A DNA stretch of 40,188 nucleotides from positions 15,657-55,844 of the IMG/VR virus record IMGVR_UViG_3300001450_000045, one strand, 5' to 3'. Shown one piece after another: positions 12,401-40,184 of this stretch. The translations under genes were made by a program, and so were the position numbers. The notes beneath the pieces are model-generated. The model did no database searches and was not told where the DNA came from. It worked only from the letters and a program-made list of their open reading frames with translations. Source of the DNA: a virus. How positions within the stretch are numbered: the stretch's first letter is position 1; the number at the start of each line of letters is the position of its first letter.

Positions 12401-14003
12401 AGGAAAACCTACTGAAGCTGAACAAACTCCTATATATATAAGACTTGATGGTGAGCTTATAGGGACATTACCTGCAGGCCTTGGTGCAGAAAGAGTAGCA
12501 ATACTAGAAAAATTAAAAGCTGGTGAAAAAGTAACTACAAAAATATCAGAAATTATAGCTAATAACTATAACAATGCTGTACTATCAGAAGCAACAGACA
12601 CAAGTTATTTTTATAATATAGAAGAAGAGATTGGAGGAGGCAGTAGAAATAATGTATTACTAGCATTTACATCTGGAGTTCCTGGAGAAACAGATATAGT
12701 ACAATGGCAGGTTAGTGATGTAAGTCCTGATAAAAATCAAAAAGATTTACCTAAAATAAAAGCTTCAGTACAAACAGAACAAACTAGTGGTCGAATAGAT
12801 CAGATAGCAGTAGTAGCAAGGCCGGAAAATGTGCCTGGAGGTAAGCCTAGGATTGTATTAACTAGTACTGCTAATTTATCTGAAGCTGCTAAAAAGAAAG
12901 TTGTTGAAGCTATACAAAATAAAAATTACGGGTTAGCTGCACAAATAGTAGCAGCAAGTGTGCAACCACAAAATGCAGATAAAAACCCAAGTTTTTTAAC
13001 GTTTGACACTTTTAGAGGAGGAGAACAATATTTAGTGTATTACAGCCCAAGATTAGAAAAGCTAATAAGAATTACTGAAAGTGAAATGATTAAAGCTTTA
13101 AATACTCAAAAGGCTTCTTATAATATTGTTGAACTAGTAGAAGATAGTACTGGTTCAACATTTATTTCTAGAGGAAAAAGAAATACAGAAAGCGATAAGT
13201 TTAATCTTAAAGAAGATTTTGAAAGTTTTTTAAATAATAAAAAATATCATGTAGATAAAGGTTTTGCTAACACTACAGAACAATATGTTAGTCCTGTTAC
13301 AGGATTAACTTATAATGATTACCAAGAATATTTATTTTCTAGTACAGAAACCGGTAATAGGGTACAGGGAGAAGGACATTACTCTATATTGAGTGTAGAT
13401 ACTACAAGAATAAATGAAAGTTTATTTAATAATCCTAGGGTGACATTTGAAAGGGGAAATTTATTTGGTAAAACTGCACAAGAGGTTATTGAAGAGTCTA
13501 AACTAGAACCATCTACAGAAGCTCCAGCAGCTAAAAAAACTCAATATTCTTCTAAATTAAAAGAAATATTTGACAGAAGAAAACTTGCTACTAAAACCGA
13601 TTTAAAAAATTCTCAACTTATAAAAGATATAAGAGTTGATAAAACTCAATCAAAGGATATTAAACCAAATAAAGCTGATAAGAATTTAGCAAGTATAATG
13701 CTTTATGGTAAAACTTATAATGAATTACTAGATCAAGGTTTACCAGAAGAAGCATTAGAATCTGAAACATTGGCTTATAGAATTTTAAATGATTTACAAT
13801 TTAATATAAATGATTTACTTTTTTATAAAGAAATAGTACAAATAGATCCATCAATTGCTGCTACTTTAACTAAAAATGAAAACTCTGTTAAAGAATATTT
13901 TGAAAGTGATATATTTGAGCAGGCAGAACAACAAATGAGTAAAGAAGCTCCAGTAGTTCCTCAAAATTTTAAAGATAAATTTAATAAAAAGAATTGTAAA
14001 TAA
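9456..14003 (+). CDS. Giant virion cargo protein with hydrophobic and coiled-coil regions
   Basis: 1515 aa. After a polar N-terminus there are Gly/Ala-rich hydrophobic helices at about 98-125 and 170-200, and another near 425-442, so the first 450 residues could insert in a membrane. Residues about 730-815 are a long Lys/Glu/Ala coiled coil, followed by an acidic linker to about 905. The C-terminal part (about 910-1330) is beta-rich with several small domains, followed by a helical tail. It starts at the TAATG overlap with the upstream gene and ends in another TAATG overlap with the RNA polymerase gene, so the two are probably translationally coupled. By position it is likely a partner or co-ejected protein of the virion RNA polymerase. 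I saw no catalytic motif. Confidence 0.6.
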   Translation: MGIPITISSQTNLPDVTPKTPSKGMPIVYNPEIDKKSLDRISRIDPFDTINFTNIYTDDLSKYKKYDVPTTRHFNWDDERAKNQGTGEKWLNGISKALVTTVGAVAENTLGVVAGIGELFLGSGYYYDNFIGQSVDKANDWMREAMPNYRTQAEIDMTTGQKLGTANFWADTVANGAGYSLGSIATMFLTGGTGAIMRGTNLISKAAKSKSIYNVSKAITNGTKLADKAFKTNRGQAILKSANMLEMGLYMSLAEASVEAREAQKQAYEGLVNLELEKRGLEKEFELGNKVLENILNASYSAGNADFLMQLPVLTGTNLLMFGKQLAGFKTASKINRDVALDAATKSVIDKTAGRGLFRTGLSRFKPTAEGALTEAFQEGWQFASKVGAIDYHTDKYFNGGSADMSQSMLKGLNETFGTQEGLESMLVGAIVGGGISGVTSAVQKPYAQRKKNAKYLTDLLNGGYLRNAANKGMTSKMMTAALTQMEQSKQEGNIKAFKDAQNKLIMYNAFEAIQNGGFDVFMEKLNDAASLSDVEFAKSFGYNTEESIKDQTGKTKEEIVENLREKYKSFKETYDSINKAFPSQDPKTGLPRMRMTEAERKAEETVYQRREGLRAQLILGMYGIKDRNSRLKSIHDKMQGILDGSVNLNNGSIMKDILALPEFGGTKAEDYTAKEEQANVKKRLEEVLGLLIKNNVDPLKIQEFSKEAGDYLDLLAENQVAVEAHIKLSSNEYSQELFEEERVKREEQAKQAAKDLKNKKEIRDAKTEKDIKENVEDAKDEVKVDADIKEKELKAQEQQEKKKYLDYYEGLPIEQQILNLKAIDQTTLTDSELEGLKKAIEELEYEVNNKEQIEKEKQVEKEDEPVGDLADIQVEEESAPPKRQIKTKSDPAQLSLEDMLPMEETEDAPVLSISLKENPTLWVTNKKKVGVDGNGIPNLQEGDTLDGKPIVINQSVLLGDAVGREITFEIIENDFFTQNHKGKPTEAEQTPIYIRLDGELIGTLPAGLGAERVAILEKLKAGEKVTTKISEIIANNYNNAVLSEATDTSYFYNIEEEIGGGSRNNVLLAFTSGVPGETDIVQWQVSDVSPDKNQKDLPKIKASVQTEQTSGRIDQIAVVARPENVPGGKPRIVLTSTANLSEAAKKKVVEAIQNKNYGLAAQIVAASVQPQNADKNPSFLTFDTFRGGEQYLVYYSPRLEKLIRITESEMIKALNTQKASYNIVELVEDSTGSTFISRGKRNTESDKFNLKEDFESFLNNKKYHVDKGFANTTEQYVSPVTGLTYNDYQEYLFSSTETGNRVQGEGHYSILSVDTTRINESLFNNPRVTFERGNLFGKTAQEVIEESKLEPSTEAPAAKKTQYSSKLKEIFDRRKLATKTDLKNSQLIKDIRVDKTQSKDIKPNKADKNLASIMLYGKTYNELLDQGLPEEALESETLAYRILNDLQFNINDLLFYKEIVQIDPSIAATLTKNENSVKEYFESDIFEQAEQQMSKEAPVVPQNFKDKFNKKNCK

Positions 14004-17000
14004 TGAGTTGTAGAATAGAAAACGGTAGAGCTGTATTGCCTAATGGTAAAGACTCTAAACTTTTAAAAGATTTAAGAGATGCTGTAGGGTCTAATGCAGA
14101 AGCAGAAACTATATACGAAAGTATATATGGGGAAGAGTTTAAAAAATTTTATGGATTTAATTTTGAAAAACAAGATATAAATCAAATAGAACAATATTTT
14201 AATAATTTAGATGAAAACAATGAGCCTAGACTTTTTCAAGGTATAGGTATATATGAGTTTTTAAATAATAAATCAGAAAGTTTTCCTGTAGCTTTATCTA
14301 ATAAACAAAAAAATAAAGTACTTGATTTAAATAGATCTGAAAAAGAAAACATGCAGATACAATCTGCTTTGTTAAACACTTTACTAGGATTTGCAAATGA
14401 TATACAAATTAAAGTAGGGTATAAAATGGGAGGTAATCTAGTTAGTGCCTTAAAAGATAAAACTTTACAAGCAGCATTTAATAATAGTATTACTATAGAA
14501 AAAGCAAAAGAATTGTATGACACTCTAACATCTGGTGAAAATGGATATGATAATTTTGTAAAAAAGATAGAAGAAGGAAATATAGAGCTAGGACAAAACT
14601 GGGATGTATTTATAAATGCTTACGACCAGTGGGACAGTAAATATGATGCATTAGGAAACATACAAACAGTAGGAGTATTTGATTTATTAAGAGACAGTTT
14701 GTCTACACAAGACATGAAACTATTAGATAAAAGCTCTCTTATAGAAGAAATAGATGAAGAGTTTATACGAATCTATAATATGTCTAGAATACAAGAAGAC
14801 CCTAAAACTAAATTATCCGAAAGAGCTAAAGCGCTTTTAACAAATATTAAAGTAGGGACTAATATATTAGGGTATCCAGAAACTTTACCTTTAGCTAGAG
14901 TAGTATCTATTCTAACAGAAGCAGCAGTTAGTCAACCAACCTTTGATGCTATGGTATCAAAATTAGATTACTATTCAGAGTACAAACCTGAAGTACAAGC
15001 AATTACAGAAAGACTAGTAGGATTAAATCCGGGACAAAAAGCTGCTATGTTTGCAGCATTTAAAAATACATATAAAAGATTTTTATTATTTAAAAAAGAA
15101 AATCAATCAGATGGTACAACTAAAAATTTAATTATTAATTCTAATCAAAGCAGTGTTACAAAAAGATCACGAAAAGATTTTATAAATAATTCTGTAGAAT
15201 ATATAACAGTAAACCCAAGATCTCCTTATAGAGAGGTTAACGGAAAACTTGAAGTTAAACCGGAAAAGTTAGAGCGTATACAAAACGCATGGAAAGTAGT
15301 AAAAACAGCACAAAGTAATAGAGATCTAGCAGAGTGGAGTGAAGCGCAAATAGATGCGCTAGGAACATATTTGTGGGAACTAGGAATGAACTACGGACCT
15401 ACATTAGAATCTACAAGAGAAAATTTAAAAAGGTATTATGCAATAGGTAATGAGCAAGGTGTTACTAAAGGGTATCTTTTTTCTGAGTTTGCATTTAGTC
15501 CTAATGAAAATTTTGAAAAACTTTTATTAATACTAGAAAATACTCCGGGCACAAATTTTCATAATAAAGAAGGTAGTACTATTGAAAAAATTGCTCAGTT
15601 GTCTATTTTATTTGACAGTCAACCTTTTGGTACATTTATTAGTGGTACAAATAAATCATATTACCCTGTTAATCAGCCAACATCTGTAGATGAACTAATA
15701 GAATTAATTAACGATCCGCAACAAACAGAAGAAAGAAAACGTTATTTTTCTGAGTTAGAAAAAGATCCGTTGTTTGTACCCCAGCCTGGTCCTGACACTA
15801 CATACAACTCAATACTACTAGAAGCATTAAAAACTGTTAAAGGAAGAAAAGCATTTAGAAACTATACTTTAGATTCATATAAAACAGGAAACACTGTTGT
15901 AGATTATGAAGGACAAAATAACAAAGCATCTTTAATAGAAAGAATGATAGGGTTTATAAATAAAGATAGTGATTTTGCTTATTCTGCTTTACACATACAG
16001 GCGGACCGTCCAAACTTAGGATTTATACAAGTACCTAAAGTAAATAGTTTAAAAAAGTTTGGTATTACACTAAACAGAAAGCAAATAATAGAAGGGCTTA
16101 TTATACAAGACCTTGCTAGAATAGATCAAGCAAACAGGGAAATACAAAATGCTAGAGTAACAAACAACACATCTAAATTAATGGAAGGGTATCATTATAA
16201 AAAAGGTAGTAGTCCTTATGCCGGAGATGGTTCTGTATTTACAATGACACAAATTTATGGATTAGAAGACATAAAAACAACTGAAGGAACTAACATGTCT
16301 AAACTATTAGGAACTTTTTTAAATAAAACAGACAAAACAGATGTAAGAACATTTAATAAATTGTTAGATCAACAAGTAATTTACGTTGAAAATATGTTAA
16401 AGGAGTTTGAAAACGAAATGCAACGAACTTTACCAAATCTTGACATTAGATTACCTGTAGATGTTGATGCATCTTTAAGCAGTAACAATTTACAAATAGA
16501 TTTTATAAAAGATTTTATATTCCAAGAGTTTGTAGGAAGAGCAGAAGTAACTAAATTTTTAAGAAGTGGGTATTCTTTTGCAAAAGATGAGGCAGATTTT
16601 TACAAGCGTAGTGGATTATTAAATACGCCTGGAAGTAAATTAGCTATACAAGGCTTTGATCAAAATGATACACAGTATGGTATGATGCCTGAGTATAATG
16701 CATTAGTAATAAAAGACTTTAATTATACAGATACACAAAAGTCAGATGCTGTTGTAGAAAGTTTAATAAATAATGGACTAAGAAAAGAAATAGCTGAACT
16801 ATATAGAACTACTAATAAATCAGATGCGCAATCTTTTATTAGCTTAGAAATGTACCGAGGAATTATGCAAGGTATGGGTAAATGGAACAATCTAGATGAG
16901 CAGGCATATAAAGAATATTTAGCTGGAGGGGACTACAATAGACCTACCGTACCTTTAAAGCCATATCATGAACAAACAAATGTAAAAAATGGTGTTAGTA

Positions 17001-19351
17001 CTATGCATATGGATAAGAATTCATATATGGTAGTAACTCCACAGCTTGCAAGAGACTTTAGCTATTTGCAAACAATGATTGATGCATTTAAGAAAGGTAT
17101 ACACGTAGTCCACACAGAGAGCGCTACAAAAGGAGCAAGAGTTAATGTACAAGATTTTCAAGGAACAGGAGTATTAGATCTTTCTACTCCAATGGTTATG
17201 GACTCTAGTAAATTAAGATTTCCGCAAATGATTCCTACAGAAGAAAAAGGAAAAGTTGTGTTTAATAGACAAATTAGAAAAAACCTTATTACTAATGTAC
17301 TTCCTAATGAAATGTATATCTATGAAGGACAACAGATTCCAGGAGCTATGCTTCAGGAAATGTTTGGGATGGCTATTAGTGAAAACATAGAAGAAGATAC
17401 TAGCAGAGTATTAAGAGAGTTAGGAATAAGTCAAGTTGCTAAAATTAAAGATAAAGAAACTATTGAGCACAAAAATGCTAAACTAAATCATTTAAAATTG
17501 CTTAGAGGTAGAATAGAACAGGAAATTAAAGATAAAGAGTTACCTCAAAACTATTTAGACGGTTTAGATATTATACCTAATGGACCATTTGACTACAAAT
17601 TTAGGATACCACTAAGTTTTCCAAATTTTACATCTAAATTTGAAACAATGGTTGCAGGTATATTTCGTAAAGAAATTTATAATCAAAAGTTAAAAGGTAT
17701 AGAAGCAGTACAAATAGCAGAACTAGGAGGTCATAACATTAGTGGAGAACTACAAATGTATAATGGTAGTAATGGAGGGGCAGAAGTAAGAATAAAAGCT
17801 AGTACTCTTGGATTTACAGCAGAAGAAATAGAAGGTAAAATTGCTGAAGACGATCCTAGACTAGAGTTTATAGGGTATCGTATACCACAACAAGGTAAGA
17901 GCTCTGCAATGGTATTTAAAGTTGTTGACTTTTTACCTGAAAATTATTCTAAAGCTATTATGGTTCCGGGGGCCCTAACTATACAACAAGGTAGTGATTT
18001 TGATATAGATAAACTACACCTTATATTTAAAGAAACAGGCAAACTTACTGCCAAACAAGAAAGAAATAATATTATATACGAAGTATTTAAAAGTATATTA
18101 CTAGATAAAAAACATTTACAAGAAGTTATGACTCCAGTAGCAAATGCTACACTAGACCGGTTAGCAATATCTAGTAAAAAAATAAATTATAATAATCCTT
18201 TGTCAGAACTACAGATGGAAAGTAGAAACAAAGTAGGGATTGCAGGTAGAGGATTATGGTCAAACATGCTTGCAGGTAGAAACGTAGCAGAAACATTAAA
18301 AGTTTTAAATATAAATTCTGACTTTGCCCCTACAATTAATGGGCAAAAAATGTCTAGAATTACTACTGTAGACTTAGAAGGTAACTATACTGATGCAAAC
18401 ATTTCTGAATACTTGTCTGCAGCTGTAGACGCTGCAAAATCACCTATACAATTAGATATAAATGATAATGTTTATACAATACCTGTAGCAGGACTAATGC
18501 TAATGACTGGTATACCAATTACAACAGTAGTAGAATTTTTAACACAGCCTGCTATTGTAAAACTAATTGAAACTGCAACTATAAAAAGTATTCCAGAAAA
18601 TAAATTGTTAGATTCTATAGATATGAAAGATGGAAAGATAGCTAATATGACTTTTGATTCTTTAGCATCAAAAAGTATTCCTAATGATAGACTTTTAATA
18701 AATTTTGCAAAATTTTATATGGCAGGTAAGCAATTACAAAGAGTAAATAAAATAATTACACCTGGAAATTTAGACAATCTTAACGAAATCTCAGCTATAA
18801 ATAATCATTTAGATACCGAAGCTTTTTATTTAGGTAATCAAAGTTTAATCAAAGGAGCAAAAGATTATATAGTACATCAACAAGGAACATCTAGTCCTCA
18901 GAATCATACAGGTATTGCATATAGAGGAGTTCTTGATACTATACTAAATAACATGAGTAGTTTAGGATTTATACAAAATAGCGCTGCATTTAAGCAAGGT
19001 AAAGAAGATATTAAAAACATTTTACAATTAGATATTCTTAGTGCGGGTCAACATAAATTTATAGATAGAGCACTAAACTTATCTATTATGACTCAAGCTC
19101 ACAGTCCTTTATCTGATATACTTTCTAGATCAGTAATAGAAAACTTATATACAAAAGAAAGTTCTAGAAATATAGTACTTAGGTTAAGAGAAATTGGATT
19201 ACAATATCCTGAATTAAATAATAATCCATTTTATAGACTGTTAAAAGAAGATTCTAGTAATAAAGAAACAGGTATAACACGAATAGTATTAGATACTGGA
19301 ACAGATTTATCTACAGCTGATAAAATGAGCTTAGCAATGGATTGTTTATGA
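14003..19351 (+). CDS. Virion DNA-dependent RNA polymerase, crAss-like type
   Basis: 1782 aa. The key motif is QGSDFDIDKL, with Asp1332, Asp1334 and Asp1336, matching the DxDxD magnesium-binding triad of the crAss-like virion RNA polymerases (studied in Cellulophaga phage phi14:2, gp66) and of the YonO-like two-barrel family. A proline-glycine turn and hydrophobic strands precede it, as expected for a double-psi barrel. In studied relatives the enzyme is packaged, ejected with the DNA, and transcribes early phage genes. The gene starts by TAATG overlap with the preceding cargo gene. It ends with TGA inside an ATGA overlap with the next ORF, which looks like the missing C-terminal part. The phi14:2 protein is longer (about 2180 aa), supporting a split chain here. 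Confidence 0.85.
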   Translation: MSCRIENGRAVLPNGKDSKLLKDLRDAVGSNAEAETIYESIYGEEFKKFYGFNFEKQDINQIEQYFNNLDENNEPRLFQGIGIYEFLNNKSESFPVALSNKQKNKVLDLNRSEKENMQIQSALLNTLLGFANDIQIKVGYKMGGNLVSALKDKTLQAAFNNSITIEKAKELYDTLTSGENGYDNFVKKIEEGNIELGQNWDVFINAYDQWDSKYDALGNIQTVGVFDLLRDSLSTQDMKLLDKSSLIEEIDEEFIRIYNMSRIQEDPKTKLSERAKALLTNIKVGTNILGYPETLPLARVVSILTEAAVSQPTFDAMVSKLDYYSEYKPEVQAITERLVGLNPGQKAAMFAAFKNTYKRFLLFKKENQSDGTTKNLIINSNQSSVTKRSRKDFINNSVEYITVNPRSPYREVNGKLEVKPEKLERIQNAWKVVKTAQSNRDLAEWSEAQIDALGTYLWELGMNYGPTLESTRENLKRYYAIGNEQGVTKGYLFSEFAFSPNENFEKLLLILENTPGTNFHNKEGSTIEKIAQLSILFDSQPFGTFISGTNKSYYPVNQPTSVDELIELINDPQQTEERKRYFSELEKDPLFVPQPGPDTTYNSILLEALKTVKGRKAFRNYTLDSYKTGNTVVDYEGQNNKASLIERMIGFINKDSDFAYSALHIQADRPNLGFIQVPKVNSLKKFGITLNRKQIIEGLIIQDLARIDQANREIQNARVTNNTSKLMEGYHYKKGSSPYAGDGSVFTMTQIYGLEDIKTTEGTNMSKLLGTFLNKTDKTDVRTFNKLLDQQVIYVENMLKEFENEMQRTLPNLDIRLPVDVDASLSSNNLQIDFIKDFIFQEFVGRAEVTKFLRSGYSFAKDEADFYKRSGLLNTPGSKLAIQGFDQNDTQYGMMPEYNALVIKDFNYTDTQKSDAVVESLINNGLRKEIAELYRTTNKSDAQSFISLEMYRGIMQGMGKWNNLDEQAYKEYLAGGDYNRPTVPLKPYHEQTNVKNGVSTMHMDKNSYMVVTPQLARDFSYLQTMIDAFKKGIHVVHTESATKGARVNVQDFQGTGVLDLSTPMVMDSSKLRFPQMIPTEEKGKVVFNRQIRKNLITNVLPNEMYIYEGQQIPGAMLQEMFGMAISENIEEDTSRVLRELGISQVAKIKDKETIEHKNAKLNHLKLLRGRIEQEIKDKELPQNYLDGLDIIPNGPFDYKFRIPLSFPNFTSKFETMVAGIFRKEIYNQKLKGIEAVQIAELGGHNISGELQMYNGSNGGAEVRIKASTLGFTAEEIEGKIAEDDPRLEFIGYRIPQQGKSSAMVFKVVDFLPENYSKAIMVPGALTIQQGSDFDIDKLHLIFKETGKLTAKQERNNIIYEVFKSILLDKKHLQEVMTPVANATLDRLAISSKKINYNNPLSELQMESRNKVGIAGRGLWSNMLAGRNVAETLKVLNINSDFAPTINGQKMSRITTVDLEGNYTDANISEYLSAAVDAAKSPIQLDINDNVYTIPVAGLMLMTGIPITTVVEFLTQPAIVKLIETATIKSIPENKLLDSIDMKDGKIANMTFDSLASKSIPNDRLLINFAKFYMAGKQLQRVNKIITPGNLDNLNEISAINNHLDTEAFYLGNQSLIKGAKDYIVHQQGTSSPQNHTGIAYRGVLDTILNNMSSLGFIQNSAAFKQGKEDIKNILQLDILSAGQHKFIDRALNLSIMTQAHSPLSDILSRSVIENLYTKESSRNIVLRLREIGLQYPELNNNPFYRLLKEDSSNKETGITRIVLDTGTDLSTADKMSLAMDCL

Positions 19352-24429: not shown

Positions 24430-24438
24430 GGGGGCTGT

Positions 24439-24464
24439 AAAAAAGGGGCATTGCCCCCTCTTTT
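24439..24464. terminator. Bidirectional intrinsic terminator between convergent gene blocks
   Basis: The sequence has a run of six A, then GGGGC (24445-24449), loop ATT, GCCCC (24453-24457), then CTCTTTT. A A-run and T-run on opposite sides make it usable on both strands. It fills the 37-base gap between the plus-strand stop at 24429 and the minus-strand stop at 24467. An alternative longer pairing, AGGGGGC at 24429-24435 with GCCCCCT at 24453-24459, is also possible. Confidence 0.8.
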
Positions 24465-24466
24465 AG

Positions 24467-24943
24467 TTATTGCATACTCATTTTTAACAACAATAGATAA
24501 CCTATAAGATCATCAACTGTATCTTCAGTTTGATCATTTATACCTTTGTTTTTTATACGCATAATTTTATCATCAATACGTGCACACAAAGCCTCTGTTG
24601 CGTCAAGCCTGCTAAATATCTTAACAGGAGCTAACGCCGTGTTACCATAGGCTTTGTTTTTACTTTTTAATAATTCTACAATTTCACTAGTTACTTTGTC
24701 TAGATTATTTGCAAAATCATCAGAGTTCGTATCTGTTCTTACCCAAGAAGGTATTGTACACTGCACTAACGGCTCTACATTATCAGCCTCAGCATAAAAA
24801 CAAAGATCTAACGTGCCTTCAGAGCACAGTTTAAGTTCTGTTTTTAAAATTTCTACAACTACATACCTACCACCTATAACTCCTCGATGATGTCTTGGGT
24901 CATGCTTCATTAACACTACAATGTCATTTATATTTATCTTCAT
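24467..24943 (-). CDS. Nmad1 (DUF1599)-domain protein
   Basis: 158 aa. Residues about 85-155 match the Nmad1/DUF1599 pattern: KNKAYGN, then KIFSR, ARIDDKIMRI, and EDTVDDLIGYL. This small all-alpha domain is linked to nucleotide modification and is common in phages; its exact reaction is not settled, and its acidic residues recall MazG-type nucleotide hydrolases. The first 60 residues form a separate beta-type region (NDIVVLM, RYVVVEIL, LCFYAEADNVEPL) that resembles a small SH3/KOW-like barrel, an unusual addition to the core domain. The start overlaps the upstream stop as ATGA. It is the last gene of the minus-strand block, ending at the bidirectional terminator. Confidence 0.7.
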   Translation of the reverse strand: MKININDIVVLMKHDPRHHRGVIGGRYVVVEILKTELKLCSEGTLDLCFYAEADNVEPLVQCTIPSWVRTDTNSDDFANNLDKVTSEIVELLKSKNKAYGNTALAPVKIFSRLDATEALCARIDDKIMRIKNKGINDQTEDTVDDLIGYLLLLKMSMQ

Positions 24944-25716
24944 AATAATTTTTTTAGTTCATAAATTTTAGGATTATATGTTTCTTTTTTAATATCTAAA
25001 ATGCTTAGTAATTCTGATCCTTCTGGTAGTACAGCTCCCAACTTTTCTTCTAGCAAGTCTTTACGTTTACTGCTTTTAAATATTATTTGTCCTATTTCGT
25101 CTTGTATATCAGCATCATGAAAATCTAAAATATCTATTTTATATTCTCGTGACATCTTAGAATACTTCCCCGCTATAAATGCTCTGTAATCTTTTGCATA
25201 ACCTTTAGGTATATCAAATATAAACATTACAAGATGTGGATTTGGATCATATCTTCTCTTAAACATTTTAAACGTAGAAAGTAATTTTTCAAACTTAATA
25301 AATCTTAAATCTGAAGACCATCTAAAAAGTAAAGCAATACATCTAGTATCTTCATCTGTTCCTATAAAACAATTTATAAATAGTTTATTCCAAAAATAAA
25401 GTTTTTTAGTTCCAGGAAGCATAGGCATAAGAAATGTAGAAGCTTTAGTTCTTTTAGCCATAGATATATGATATTCTACTTTGTTAGATATAGAGAGAAT
25501 CTCGTTAGGAATCCTCTCTATAATATTAACTTTGTATTTTAATTTTCTAACTAATACGGTTAAACCTAAATCAATAAGAATATCTTCAGGGCCTTTCAAT
25601 GCAATTATGTGTTTTTTATCATTATACACAGGTTTTAAGCATAAAGTATTACCTGTAATTTTAAATGTTAATGCATTTACAGGAGTATATACTAATTCAT
25701 CGCATTGTGTTACCAT
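24940..25716 (-). CDS. Conserved-looking protein of unknown function
   Basis: 258 aa, basic, with no membrane segment, Cys cluster or recognisable catalytic motif. The N-terminal 85 residues look beta-rich. The central part contains LMPMLPG, CFIGTDEDTRCIALLFRW and a VMFIFDIPKGY segment, suggesting an alpha/beta core with a buried strand ending in Asp. The C-terminus is helical and charged. Its position in a chain with a 5'-3' exonuclease upstream (7-base overlap) and an Nmad1 protein downstream (4-base overlap) suggests a role in DNA metabolism or modification. I do not recognise the family and give no function. Confidence 0.6.
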   Translation of the reverse strand: MVTQCDELVYTPVNALTFKITGNTLCLKPVYNDKKHIIALKGPEDILIDLGLTVLVRKLKYKVNIIERIPNEILSISNKVEYHISMAKRTKASTFLMPMLPGTKKLYFWNKLFINCFIGTDEDTRCIALLFRWSSDLRFIKFEKLLSTFKMFKRRYDPNPHLVMFIFDIPKGYAKDYRAFIAGKYSKMSREYKIDILDFHDADIQDEIGQIIFKSSKRKDLLEEKLGAVLPEGSELLSILDIKKETYNPKIYELKKLL

Positions 25717-26462
25717 AATTCTTCTTGATTTAAAAGTTCAACTTTATGTACTTCAAGCTCTGGCAATTCTATACCGGTTTCTCTTAGTACATCTTTTTTA
25801 GTTTTTAGTATGTAAATAAGTTTAAAGGTTTCTGTAAATCTATGAATTCCTTCAGAATTTCCAAACTTTTCTATATATTTATTTAATACAAATGTAGGCA
25901 TTTCTACAGGTAGCATGTTTTCTAACCATGTATCTGCAGTTTTAGGACCTACTTTAGGTATACCAGTAATACCATCTGTAGAGTCTCCCATTAGTACTTG
26001 TTTCCATAAGAAACGTAGGGATTCATTTTCATCTACAGTAGCAAATTCTGCTTTACCATAATTATAATTAGATACTTTATTTTGATACAACACGTCTTTA
26101 TCTGGACTGCATATTACAGTCTTTAAAGGGTCATGATATACAGAAACTAAGTCATCTGCTTCTAATTCAGGAATGTATGTAAAATTCCATTTTTGTTTTA
26201 AATATTCTTTAATTGCTGGAAATATAATTGGTTTATTACCTCGTTTTCTGTTGTATTTATATGGTTTTGTAGTTGCTATGTTATATCTAAAGCATTTACC
26301 TTGTGTTAGAAAACCTGCGTAATGTGTACATCCTGTTATATTTAGCATTTGAGTAATTCTCATGTCTATGCCATCTAAAGCTTCTTCTAGTGTAGGTTTA
26401 CTCATCTCATAGTATATAAGACTATCACCATCTATTAAAGCTATTTTTTCATCTCTATTCAT
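25710..26462 (-). CDS. 5'-3' exonuclease / flap endonuclease (FEN family)
   Basis: 250 aa, the size of a phage FEN-type exonuclease. Metal-binding acidic motifs appear in the family order: IDGD with Asp11 and Asp13, ELEADD with Glu101, Asp103 and Asp104, SPDKD with Asp121 and Asp123, and GDSTDG with Asp160 and Asp163. The last is followed by IPKVGPKTA, the helix-hairpin-helix (H3TH) that grips the DNA backbone. A basic patch at about 66-77 (Tyr-Lys-Tyr-Asn-Arg-Lys-Arg) fits the helical arch. Such enzymes remove RNA primers and 5' flaps and can degrade host DNA. The start follows the structured RNA element by about 20 bases, so this gene and the two after it may be controlled through that leader. 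Confidence 0.9.
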   Translation of the reverse strand: MNRDEKIALIDGDSLIYYEMSKPTLEEALDGIDMRITQMLNITGCTHYAGFLTQGKCFRYNIATTKPYKYNRKRGNKPIIFPAIKEYLKQKWNFTYIPELEADDLVSVYHDPLKTVICSPDKDVLYQNKVSNYNYGKAEFATVDENESLRFLWKQVLMGDSTDGITGIPKVGPKTADTWLENMLPVEMPTFVLNKYIEKFGNSEGIHRFTETFKLIYILKTKKDVLRETGIELPELEVHKVELLNQEELW

Positions 26463-26483: not shown

Positions 26484-26585
26484 GATATAAAGGGGGTAGA
26501 TATAAAATCTAATTAAAAACAGGAAGCTCTTATACTCCCGGTTAAAGTTGGTTGGCAAAACGCCGTTCGTCTACCCCCTCATATC
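26484..26585 (-). ncRNA. Cloverleaf-like structured RNA element 1
   Basis: Between the rIIB-like stop and the exonuclease start, a perfect 10-bp stem pairs AGGGGGTAGA (26570-26579) with TCTACCCCCT (26491-26500). After a small internal loop, a further 5 bp pair GATAT (26581-26585) with ATATC (26484-26488). Inside on the minus strand are three hairpins: GGC/GCC with loop GTTTT (26554-26564); AACCGGGAG/CTTCCTGTT with one mismatch and loop TATAAGAG (26518-26543); and AGAT/ATCT (26498-26510), which competes with the closing stem. A G-T pair in arm 2 favours the minus strand. There is no canonical T-loop, so it is not an ordinary tRNA. GC content is far above its surroundings. Confidence 0.5.
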
Positions 26586-26603: not shown

Positions 26604-27770
26604 CTACAGAGCGTTCATCTCTGCAACTTCCTTGTCACATTCAGCTTTACGTTCAGACTTTTCTTGCACTGCTTTTAAGCGCATGTCATCCCATTCAGCG
26701 TCTGTCATAGCTGCATAGCTAGAGCTGTGGTAAATAGATCCATTCACACCTGATAAAGATGAATGAACAAAATATTGCTTACATCTTATAGCTCCGTCTG
26801 AGTCATCTGGCACTGCGCCAATATGCATAGGATCTACAAAAATATTGTGAATTTCTCCACTGTAGCAATTAATGTACATTAGACCACCAATATGAAGACC
26901 TTTAACACATGAACGTCTATCATCCACGTTAATTTGGTCCCATGATTCTAGTCTATGAGTACACCCAACTTTAATAAAATGTCCTGGATTAGCAAAGCCA
27001 TTAGGCCCCTCACAAAAGAAAGCATCTCCACTTGTTCCCATCATAGCGGGTTGAAATAGCCTATCTTCTACAAATTCTGGTAATCCACCACCTTCTATCT
27101 CACCGGTATCAATGTTAAACGTTCTTTTATAACGATCAACTTCTTCTCCAGTTTCTGCGTCATACTTATGAAGCACTTCTGTAGAGACTTTGTAACCATT
27201 TAGTAATCCCTCATGGGTGATTTTCATTTGGTACATTTCTGCTCTTTTAGAAGCTGCTTCATCAGTAAGACCCTGCTCTATAAGATCTTCTTTCATTTTA
27301 GGGTGAGTATATTTCATATTCACAAAATTAAAGAATCTCTCACAAAAATTGTTCCCGTGACCTTGCTTCATTTTTCTCCACAAGATTGGGTTACGCAACC
27401 ATCTAGTCCACATTTTAATTAAAGGCATAAAGTCTAGATCTTTATCTAAAGAGTCAAATATTCTATCCACTAAAGCTTGAGGCATAGGTATACTAGATAC
27501 TACGCTGTTATGCTTAAGGAAGAATTCTCCTGTAGCCTTGTTAACATGAATGTACTCACATTGTGTTTCAATGGTTTTAGTATAGTCTACAACACATAGG
27601 GGAGCAAACTCCTCCATAACTTCATTGTATTCTTCTACTGTATTTACACCTTGAGCCTTATGGCTAAGCTGTTGCATTCTATCGTATAAGTTTTTCTCAT
27701 ACTCAACTGTGAATGGGGTATCCCCATAAGATCCACAGATTTTGTCGTCTATTACATTTATTGTAATCAT
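26604..27770 (-). CDS. rIIB: rIIB-like protein
   Basis: 388 aa. The C-terminal part has the pattern seen in rIIB-like phage proteins: CVKGLHIGG (288-296), then IHNIFVDPMHIGAVP (about 307-321) and a Cys-Lys-Gln-Tyr-Phe-Val strand (330-335). The middle region resembles the usual helical SIPxPQALVDRIFD and DLDFMPLI segment. T4 rIIB works with rIIA in lysis timing and in resisting exclusion by resident lambda; the molecular activity is unknown. An rIIA-like gene sits two genes upstream, which strongly supports the call. It is longer than T4 rIIB (about 312 aa) and ends in a charged tail. The start lies 11 bases after a TTAACCAATTAAA leader motif. The stop is TAG. A structured RNA element follows within 20 bases. 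Confidence 0.65.
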   Translation of the reverse strand: MITINVIDDKICGSYGDTPFTVEYEKNLYDRMQQLSHKAQGVNTVEEYNEVMEEFAPLCVVDYTKTIETQCEYIHVNKATGEFFLKHNSVVSSIPMPQALVDRIFDSLDKDLDFMPLIKMWTRWLRNPILWRKMKQGHGNNFCERFFNFVNMKYTHPKMKEDLIEQGLTDEAASKRAEMYQMKITHEGLLNGYKVSTEVLHKYDAETGEEVDRYKRTFNIDTGEIEGGGLPEFVEDRLFQPAMMGTSGDAFFCEGPNGFANPGHFIKVGCTHRLESWDQINVDDRRSCVKGLHIGGLMYINCYSGEIHNIFVDPMHIGAVPDDSDGAIRCKQYFVHSSLSGVNGSIYHSSSYAAMTDAEWDDMRLKAVQEKSERKAECDKEVAEMNAL

Positions 27771-39192: not shown

Positions 39193-39437
39193 AACGTAAC
39201 TGTTCTATTAGTTTCTTGATCTTTATATGTACCATTTGTAGTAACCATCCCTAGATTTACTAGTTCAGTTATTCTACCAGTTACACGATTAATGTCCCAT
39301 CCTAAATGCTTAGCAATCATACGATTAGTACACATACCTTTACTTATTAGTACTTGATACACTGTCTTTCGTTTTGATCCCAAGGTATTTGAGATTTTCT
39401 TTAGAGACTCTACTTGAGTCTGTCTTATTTTTTTCAT
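39177..39437 (-). CDS. Small winged-helix DNA-binding protein
   Basis: 86 aa. Residues 37-60 (TNRMIAKHLGWDINRVTGRITELV) form a helix-turn-helix with the recognition helix around 48-58, and 62-84 (NLGMVTTNGTYKD, then TVTLW) give the beta wing. This is a complete MarR/Rep-type winged helix with an extra N-terminal helix. Roles could be transcription control of the early operon or assistance at a replication fork. It overlaps the SF2 helicase start downstream and shares 98 bases with the end of the 131-aa ORF in another frame. A shorter start at Met35 would break the domain, so the long overlap is probably real. Confidence 0.7.
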   Translation of the reverse strand: MKKIRQTQVESLKKISNTLGSKRKTVYQVLISKGMCTNRMIAKHLGWDINRVTGRITELVNLGMVTTNGTYKDQETNRTVTLWKAL

Positions 39438-39735
39438 TTGGTTTTATGTTTTTATACTTATTAGTTTGTAAATATTTAGTGTAACCAGTATTAGACTTAT
39501 GATTTAATTTATATTTAGACATATCATTAAAATATAAAGGATTAAATCCAATCCCATTAAATAAAGGTTCTTTTTCTATTTCTCTTTCAAATTTTTGTTG
39601 ATACCTATTGTTATGTTCTATTTTACCACTGTATTTAAAATAAGAATCAAAGGGTATTGTATTTTGATTATATAAATCTTCTAAATATTTCTTTTGTTTA
39701 TAATCTGCTATAAAAGCTTCTGTATCTTTATTCAT
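39340..39735 (-). CDS. Hypothetical Lys/Asn/Tyr-rich protein
   Basis: 131 aa. It opens with an acidic-basic helix (MNKDTEAFIADYKQKKYLEDLYNQ) and is otherwise rich in Lys, Asn, Tyr and Phe, with an FNGIGFNPLYFNDMSKY stretch; the tail is polar and probably disordered. No family is recognised. Support for its being real: the ATG overlaps the preceding small ORF by 8 bases, and about 300 bases would otherwise be empty in a very compact region. Against it: 98 bases at its end are shared with the winged-helix gene, and its composition is what random AT-rich sequence would give. Confidence 0.45.
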   Translation of the reverse strand: MNKDTEAFIADYKQKKYLEDLYNQNTIPFDSYFKYSGKIEHNNRYQQKFEREIEKEPLFNGIGFNPLYFNDMSKYKLNHKSNTGYTKYLQTNKYKNIKPNEKNKTDSSRVSKENLKYLGIKTKDSVSSTNK

Positions 39736-39832
39736 ATATTATTTCTTTTAATTTAGACACTAATTCATAAGAGGATATACTACCGTCCTCAAACATTTCT
39801 ATATACATCTTTATATTCTCTATTTTATTCAT
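39728..39832 (-). CDS. Small ORF, 34 aa
   Basis: An ATG ORF beginning MNKIENIKMYIEMFEDGSIS and ending LKEIIYE, a plausible two-helix protein. It follows an AAACTAAAATAATAAATT leader like those before other genes of this strand, and its stop overlaps the next ATG by 8 bases. It lies directly after the two cloverleaf-like RNA elements. Confidence 0.4.
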   Translation of the reverse strand: MNKIENIKMYIEMFEDGSISSYELVSKLKEIIYE

Positions 39833-39854
39833 AATTTATTATTTTAGTTTACGC

Positions 39855-39931
39855 AGGGACAGACAAGAGTATTAACCTGGTTGTAGATTAGTCCCTACTT
39901 TGTGTAGTTATAATCTTTTATGCCTGTCCCT
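39855..39931 (-). ncRNA. Cloverleaf-like structured RNA element 2
   Basis: A perfect 8-bp stem (AGGGACAG at 39855-39862 with CTGTCCCT at 39924-39931) encloses hairpins ATAA/TTAT with a 4-base loop (39910-39921), CTAC/GTAG with a 5-base loop (39895-39907) and AAC/GTT (39874-39882). A competing hairpin pairs GTAG (39883-39886) with CTAC (39895-39898). The 77-base length resembles a tRNA but no T-loop or anticodon arm fits on either strand. The strand is assumed from neighbouring genes. Confidence 0.45.
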
Positions 39932-39950
39932 TTGTAATTACATGTGTAAA

Positions 39951-40024
39951 TATGAGTGAGGTAAACATTTAATATTAAACTGGATGTCTCTTAGGCACCC
40001 CTTTAGATTAGGACCTCACTCATA
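39951..40024 (-). ncRNA. Cloverleaf-like structured RNA element 3
   Basis: A perfect 12-bp stem (TATGAGTGAGGT at 39951-39962 with its complement at 40013-40024) encloses three minus-strand hairpins: CCT/AGG with loop AATCTAA (40000-40012), GGTG/CATC with loop CCTAAGAGA (39983-39999), and GTTTA/TAAAT with loop ATAT (39967-39980). The arm 2 loop shares TAAGAG with arm 2 of element 1, and CTAATCTA is shared with element 2. It starts right after the stop of the right-edge ORF and lies 19 bases from element 2. Confidence 0.5.
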
Positions 40025-40025
40025 C

Positions 40026-40184
40026 TTATTTTTCCCAGCAATTACTCACTGTTACTTCTGCTTTTAGTAAGCCATTTGTTACTATTTCTAATGCAGCTTG
40101 TTCCATTAACTCTTTCATTTTCGTTGACCACCATTCTATATATTCATTTTTACATATAGTGTCAATTTGATCATGTACAGTCAT
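40026..40184 (-). CDS. Small ORF at right edge, possibly truncated
   Basis: 52 aa from the ATG at 40184, beginning MTVHDQIDTICKNEYIEWW and ending VSNCWEK. The frame stays open to the window edge, so the gene may start further right. It is helical with a Trp pair and no recognised motif. Codon use resembles neighbours. The structured RNA element 3 follows its stop by one base. Confidence 0.5.
   Translation of the reverse strand: MTVHDQIDTICKNEYIEWWSTKMKELMEQAALEIVTNGLLKAEVTVSNCWEK

Follow-up and report, generated by a model that had tools for sequence, protein, structure and literature searches.

Phage T7 carries RNase III processing signals between its early genes, and a related case is sib of phage lambda, where control is exerted from a 3' hairpin. 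In phage T4, gp43 and gp32 act on their own messages via mRNA operators that cover the regulated start site or lie next to it. Crassvirales rank with the most abundant of known phages, and the organization of their replication-gene expression is, to our knowledge, poorly known. The cis RNAs manA and wcaG of marine metagenomes and cyanophages lie in what may be the 5' UTRs of genes for metabolism and photosynthesis, and the L17 downstream element is a bacterial structure tied to one ribosomal protein gene; all three are in Rfam (PMC2864571). For crAss-like phages, the passages of published papers retrieved by keyword deal with tRNAs, introns or inteins, or hold nothing on noncoding RNA (PMC7886860; PMC10136315).

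The DNA analyzed here, referred to as the window, comprises 40,188 bases at the right-hand end of an uncultured virus record of 55,844 bases, so that its right edge is the contig end. The source virus is crAss-like as judged from its genes. The large RNA-polymerase protein of Crassvirales, crAss001 among them, is matched by the ORF at 14003-19351, which is followed on the minus strand by RIIA/RIIB-like genes and by genes for a DnaB-type helicase and a DNA helicase. A GC-rich hairpin followed by a U-run (24435-24468, minus reading) resembles an intrinsic terminator and lies where the structural module on the plus strand and the replication module on the minus strand converge. The features at the right-hand end are the following.

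40026..40184, minus strand: C-terminal 52 amino acids of a family-A DNA polymerase (polA), the gene being cut by the contig end
39947..40028, minus strand: A-type element; stem P1 of 16 bp (5' arm 40028-40013, 3' arm 39962-39947)
39855..39931, minus strand: B-type element; stem P1 of 11 bp (5' arm 39931-39921, 3' arm 39865-39855)
39728..39832, minus strand: small putative ORF of 34 amino acids; start 22 nt past the B element
39340..39735, minus strand: 131-aa protein carrying a YFKYSG motif; in relatives, it recurs as a downstream neighbour of elements of types A, B and D

The polA fragment has the same C terminus as full-length relatives, and the relative L077 matches DNA_pol_A. The 131-aa protein gave no family match. 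Together with relatives in L007, L029, L256 and L281, it forms a family of small proteins (YFKYSG..E, with an NDMSKYKL-like motif further along the protein) that is often encoded 3' of RNA elements and, for the members tested, gave no Pfam or PHROG match.

An earlier note on this DNA had described two blocks, one of 77 bases (39855-39931) and one of 74 (39951-40024), separated by 19 bases and closed by perfect stems of 8 and 12 bp; the blocks are present, as are the stems on the plus reading. On the minus strand, which is that of the flanking genes, the closing stems are longer (11 bp for 39855-39931, 16 bp for 39947-40028), and the folds beat dinucleotide shuffles with z scores of -4.9 and -4.0, respectively, none of 200 shuffles being as stable. 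GC-rich closing stems of at least 10 bp occur twice in the 965 noncoding bases of the window, compared with about 0.02 per kb in shuffles. The blocks are two element types, B (39855-39931) and A (39947-40028), and tandem duplicates of one element are ruled out by their different cores. The gap has small ORFs on one side, as had been noted, but its other side is the 3' end of polA, and three short hairpins per block were not recovered: the first block holds one branched hairpin and the second one supported hairpin (P3). Among the segments described as shared, only UUAAUA is conserved in both types, whereas the CTAATCTA match is mostly coincidence, since it lies inside the variable hairpin of block 1 and in the conserved joining strand of block 2. 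Overall, the earlier observation is partly confirmed and its interpretation partly supported. A small peptide encoded through A and B (ATG in ..UUAAAUG..) was rejected as a candidate; the frame is open in some relatives and meets an immediate stop in L004.

Relatives were collected by a protein search with a neighbouring small winged-helix protein, which yielded 25 contigs, and most of the contigs that include the polA junction show similar structures there, with different stem sequences. A first B consensus, drawn without any RNA pattern, read stem - CAUAAA - hairpin - GUUAAUACnnUUG - stem, and an exact search of IMG/VR with the B pattern returned 90 stretches, most of which are genuine because the stem pairs around the pattern. 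Pattern and protein searches located relatives of the elements in numerous contigs of uncultured phages, many marine ones included. Alignment A1 of type B comprises 42 sequences; the invariance of the pattern letters is partly by construction, since the sequences were found by exact pattern, and the stem outside CA/UG was not in that pattern. Seven of the nine closing-stem pairs have changed on both sides, with 99.2% of cells paired, and the whole structure is 91.7% paired, compared with 45-55% when the partner is slid, all of these being counts that do not represent independent events because sequences within one clade are related. The upper hairpin P2 is only 69% paired because two hairpin lengths are misaligned. 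Up to four pair types occur at one position, which would be hard to explain otherwise than by kept pairing. In type D, all eight pairs of the closing stem P1 are doubly substituted; in type A, the arms of P1 could not be aligned and compensation between members is visible on inspection, while P3 on its own shows weak covariation. The pattern search for type E returned mostly chance matches and about four real members. Homologous gaps that keep the sequence and lose the pairing had been proposed as counterevidence, and the opposite was found, i.e., the closing-stem sequence changes and the pairing stays. That these are selected, structured phage RNAs and not canonical tRNAs is therefore strongly supported by covariation across relatives.

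The closing stems are also polar. G.U pairs outnumber U.G pairs 99:3 in type B, 48:10 in A, 19:3 in D and 7:0 in E, and 76-84% of the 5' arm is purine. Since the opposite strand turns every G.U into an A.C mismatch, the folding strand is most likely the RNA of the gene strand.

At least four types are present in total, D and E having been found beyond A and B. In the B element of the window (model match 58.6 bits, E 5.9e-13), P1 encloses CAUAAA, a long-form branched hairpin P2 and then GUUAAUACUCUUG, and a short outer UAC/GUA helix lengthens the fold to 39850-39939. In the A element (model match G000:55607-55688, E 3.6e-12), the 5' arm of P1 overlaps the polA stop TAA, the stop codon being the first three P1 bases, and the interior consists of CUAAUCUAA, the hairpin P3 (GGGUG..UAAGAG..CAUCC) and UUUAAUAUUAAAUGUUU. 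Type A in general is composed of P1, CUAAUCUAA, a UAAGAG-loop hairpin and UUAAUAUUAAAUGUUU; fuller members have an additional, GGC..GCC-like P2 hairpin that is missing from the A element of the window. Type D is characterized by P1, an invariant GUAAU/AUUAC helix and an AUAAC-UCAGCR-GUUAU hairpin. Type E is represented in the window by a third element.

26604..27770, minus strand: RIIB-like gene, upstream of the E element
26491..26579, minus strand: E-type element; three-way fold (z -3.4) between the RIIB-like and 5'-3' exonuclease-like genes
25710..26462, minus strand: 5'-3' exonuclease-like gene (phrog_107), downstream of the E element

The E element comprises P1 (AGGGGGUAGA/UCUACCCCCU), P2 (GGC-GUUUU-GCC) and P3 (GGGAGU-AUAAGA-GCUUCC), and with its outer stem GAUAUGA/UUUAUAUC it spans about 26485-26584. 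Its hairpin loop resembles that of type A. By eye, B and D have a GUUA(A)UAC-UUUG-like 3' strand in common, and A and E a UAAGAG hairpin; on this comparison, the element types may be distant relatives. Further closed structures were seen in relatives, e.g., an unclassified third structure between A and B behind polA (L205:4187-4270, minus strand, z -2.3) and a structure at the polA-end junction of L003 (2641-2714) that is closed by a different stem and has only AUUAAAUGUUUU in common with type A. A structure with a 15-bp stem, TAACTATGAGTAGGG/CCTACTCATAGTTA, lies 3' of a 91-aa ORF (L297:7839-7935, G005:27839-27935), recurs with small changes in L004 at 13-109 and is possibly a further type.

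The position of the elements is narrowly defined. Among 104 elements with a gene on both sides, 95 lie between two genes of their own strand, at a median distance of 8-22 nt to the upstream stop and of 17-23 nt (B, D and E) or 86 nt (A, which is often followed by B) to the next start. In the window, the A stem opens with the polA stop codon, and the next ATG comes 22 nt after B. The neighbours include DNA polymerase A, primase, exonuclease VIII, Holliday-junction resolvase, 5'-3' exonuclease and RIIB, as well as a 216-aa protein that by eye resembles replication initiators; going by these annotations, the elements sit in replication/recombination modules. Spore-photoproduct-lyase-like radical-SAM genes directly 3' of a B element were observed in L028, L033 and L070. 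Model searches found exactly one B element in each of 21 records (genome-wide; leaving out G014, where a weak match in coding sequence is a chance hit), one A element in each of 12 (leaving out G002, where the A model matched an E element) and one D element in each of 12 (opposite-strand echoes aside), these being copy counts per record, and records may be fragments with an extra copy in the unsequenced part. The types occur in different combinations, namely A+B+E in the source phage, A+B+D in G005 and G034, B+D in G003 and G023, and B+E in G002. A and B stand in tandem in several phages, including the source phage, and far apart in G036.

Orthologous junctions hold different types across phages. 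The junction between polA and the YFKYSG protein carries A, B or D, that between a 227-aa protein and primase carries B or E, and the arrangements behind polA comprise A+B, D+B, D, B, an unclassified structure, and A plus an unclassified structure plus B. At the rIIB-exonuclease junction, E is found in the source phage, L364 and L366 and D in L298 and L406; the flanks and the outer stem GATATGAGGGG...CCCCTTTATATC are nearly identical, whereas the D and E cores are unrelated. Because types interchange at the same junction, this pattern suggests that junctions require an element rather than a particular core. For the same reason, the small RNA family postulated in the earlier note has to be qualified: it is half right, as the elements belong to at least four types with at most one copy each per record, and these trade places at junctions. 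Core swapping is thus the main argument that these sequences offer for a generic cis-acting role over specific trans-acting RNAs, and it is also the main puzzle, each core being so conserved.

The comparisons show that the gene-strand RNA between replication-module genes can fold into a closed domain, in which a long purine/pyrimidine-polar stem, free in sequence and kept by compensation, holds a core of type A, B, D or E, and which fills the gap from just after the stop to about 20 nt short of the following start. The best explanation, tentatively favoured with just under even confidence, is that the elements are cis-acting intercistronic punctuation RNAs of crAss-like phages and of others from similar samples. 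Such an element would punctuate the polycistronic message as a processing site or nuclease barrier and also as an insulator, comparable to the RNase III signals between T7 early genes, so that the upstream cistron would be separated and the downstream cistron left with a clean, short, AU-rich leader. A role in processing or protection would account for where the elements lie, for the need for a structure and for the acceptance of different cores, and a function as 3'-end stabilisers, which had been proposed for the two blocks, may be part of this wider role. Processing or protection alone leaves the conserved unpaired strands unexplained, which suggests that each core binds something; the core strands CAUAAA/GUUAAUAC of type B, the conservation of which is partly set by the search pattern, appear much more conserved than a simple RNase III site would require, and this hints at a specific ligand. 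The cores could be read by host RNase III, by a different nuclease or by a protein of the phage. Against punctuation stand the finding that no type occurs more than once in a record, while general marks might be reused, and the tandem of A and B, which exceeds what one mark requires; selection against direct repeats could be a reason for the single copies. A bolder and rather doubtful version would be a new, modular class of phage RNA, in which one structural socket, the covarying closing stem at fixed junctions of replication genes, takes several different conserved cores, one copy per genome, each recruiting a different factor to partition the replication message.

The closest rival to punctuation is a regulator-binding role, i.e., protein-binding operators at which a phage replication or regulatory protein sits on the core and either represses the translation of an adjacent gene or couples it, in the manner of T4 gp43 and gp32. 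The replication and recombination genes that make up most of the neighbours, the strongly conserved unpaired strands of the cores, and the overlap of the A 5' arm with the polA stop, through which a terminating ribosome could open the A stem, are all in its favour, but one binding protein would hardly tolerate unrelated cores at one junction, and no element in the window covers a start codon, so we regard operators as unlikely. Small RNAs acting in trans, cut out of the replication operon or transcribed inside it, with one gene per type and the neighbours as mere hosts, would agree with the single copy of each type per record, the many unrelated genes adjoining B, the wide separation of A and B in G036, the discrete, closed folds and the U-run after some A members. 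They are nevertheless quite unlikely in view of the swapping of types at one junction within a preserved outer stem, the tight fit between stop and next start, and the three window elements, none of which is followed by a U-run. The lack of a U-run after the window elements was also the ground on which generic or intrinsic terminators were rejected. A function of the DNA itself, with the hairpin formed by DNA and the elements serving as recombination linkers between gene modules, mobile cassettes or parts of a replication origin, would fit the cassette-like exchange of cores, the retention of an element by polA while the downstream gene varies, and the combination of single copy and replication region. 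It is improbable since the G.U-rich, strand-polar compensation and the orientation along the gene strand point to RNA and the position is independent of the strand-skew switch; an origin located by GC skew was itself discarded, as the skew tracks gene direction and B lies away from the switch.

A riboswitch or attenuator for a metabolite, e.g., a nucleotide, would explain a compact fold with conserved unpaired strands upstream of genes, and cis-regulatory RNAs of marine phages exist (manA and wcaG; PMC2864571). We consider it very unlikely, because no expression platform is visible in the window elements, which lack a U-run and leave the start codon outside their fold, and the downstream genes are mixed, one type preceding unrelated genes. 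Degenerate tRNAs or the tRNA mimics suggested in the earlier note are hardly credible. The size near 75 nt and the tandem spacing do recall tRNAs, but ARAGORN found 0 tRNA genes in the window, T-, D- and anticodon arms are absent from the alignments, there is no conserved 3' CCA-like tail, and the length of the element varies with the hairpin (about 52-79 nt in B). Rfam 15 gave no match at the gathering score for the window and ten loci, tRNA families included, and permissive scans gave chance-level matches only; a tRNA or known RNA family was thus ruled out by the ARAGORN and Rfam scans. Punctuation remains the preferred reading.

The elements were also sought beyond the uncultured contigs. 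The exact short-form B pattern, which variants would escape, retrieved no GTDB genome, and BLAST with two B members gave no named phage beyond three chance matches. A model search of nine phage records (phi14:2, Fpv3, crAss001 and six others, including five crAssphage genomes) found none, which is a weak negative, as the search had no positive control; the same models match strongly in most relatives. The open literature searched with broad terms, not exhaustively, contained no earlier description of the elements, and A, B, D and E appear to be undescribed as RNA families. Conserved RNA elements at replication-gene junctions are direct targets for transcript mapping, and the natural core swaps at one junction represent ready-made experiments on the requirements of intercistronic RNA. 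If a dedicated factor reads the cores, this would be a new phage RNA-protein system.

With respect to described systems, manA and wcaG are likewise structured, cis-located RNAs of marine phages found by comparative genomics (PMC2864571), whereas the elements reported here are located between replication genes and match nothing in Rfam. The L17 downstream element is similar in being a structured RNA directly after a gene (PMC2864571); unlike it, the present elements follow many genes and swap types. The T4 gp43 and gp32 operators have in common with them the attachment of structured RNA to phage DNA-polymerase or SSB genes, but the elements come after the stop codon, and about 20 nt separate their ends from the next start. 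The T7-type RNase III signals share the location between cistrons of a phage operon (here same-strand genes, close to stop and start) as well as the long stem, asymmetric internal loop and upper hairpin. The elements differ from these signals in their highly conserved unpaired strands, their interchangeable cores and the occurrence of each type once per record. By analogy, the working mode would be a familiar one, namely, that of an intercistronic structured RNA in a phage operon, while the exchange of cores within one stem is unusual.
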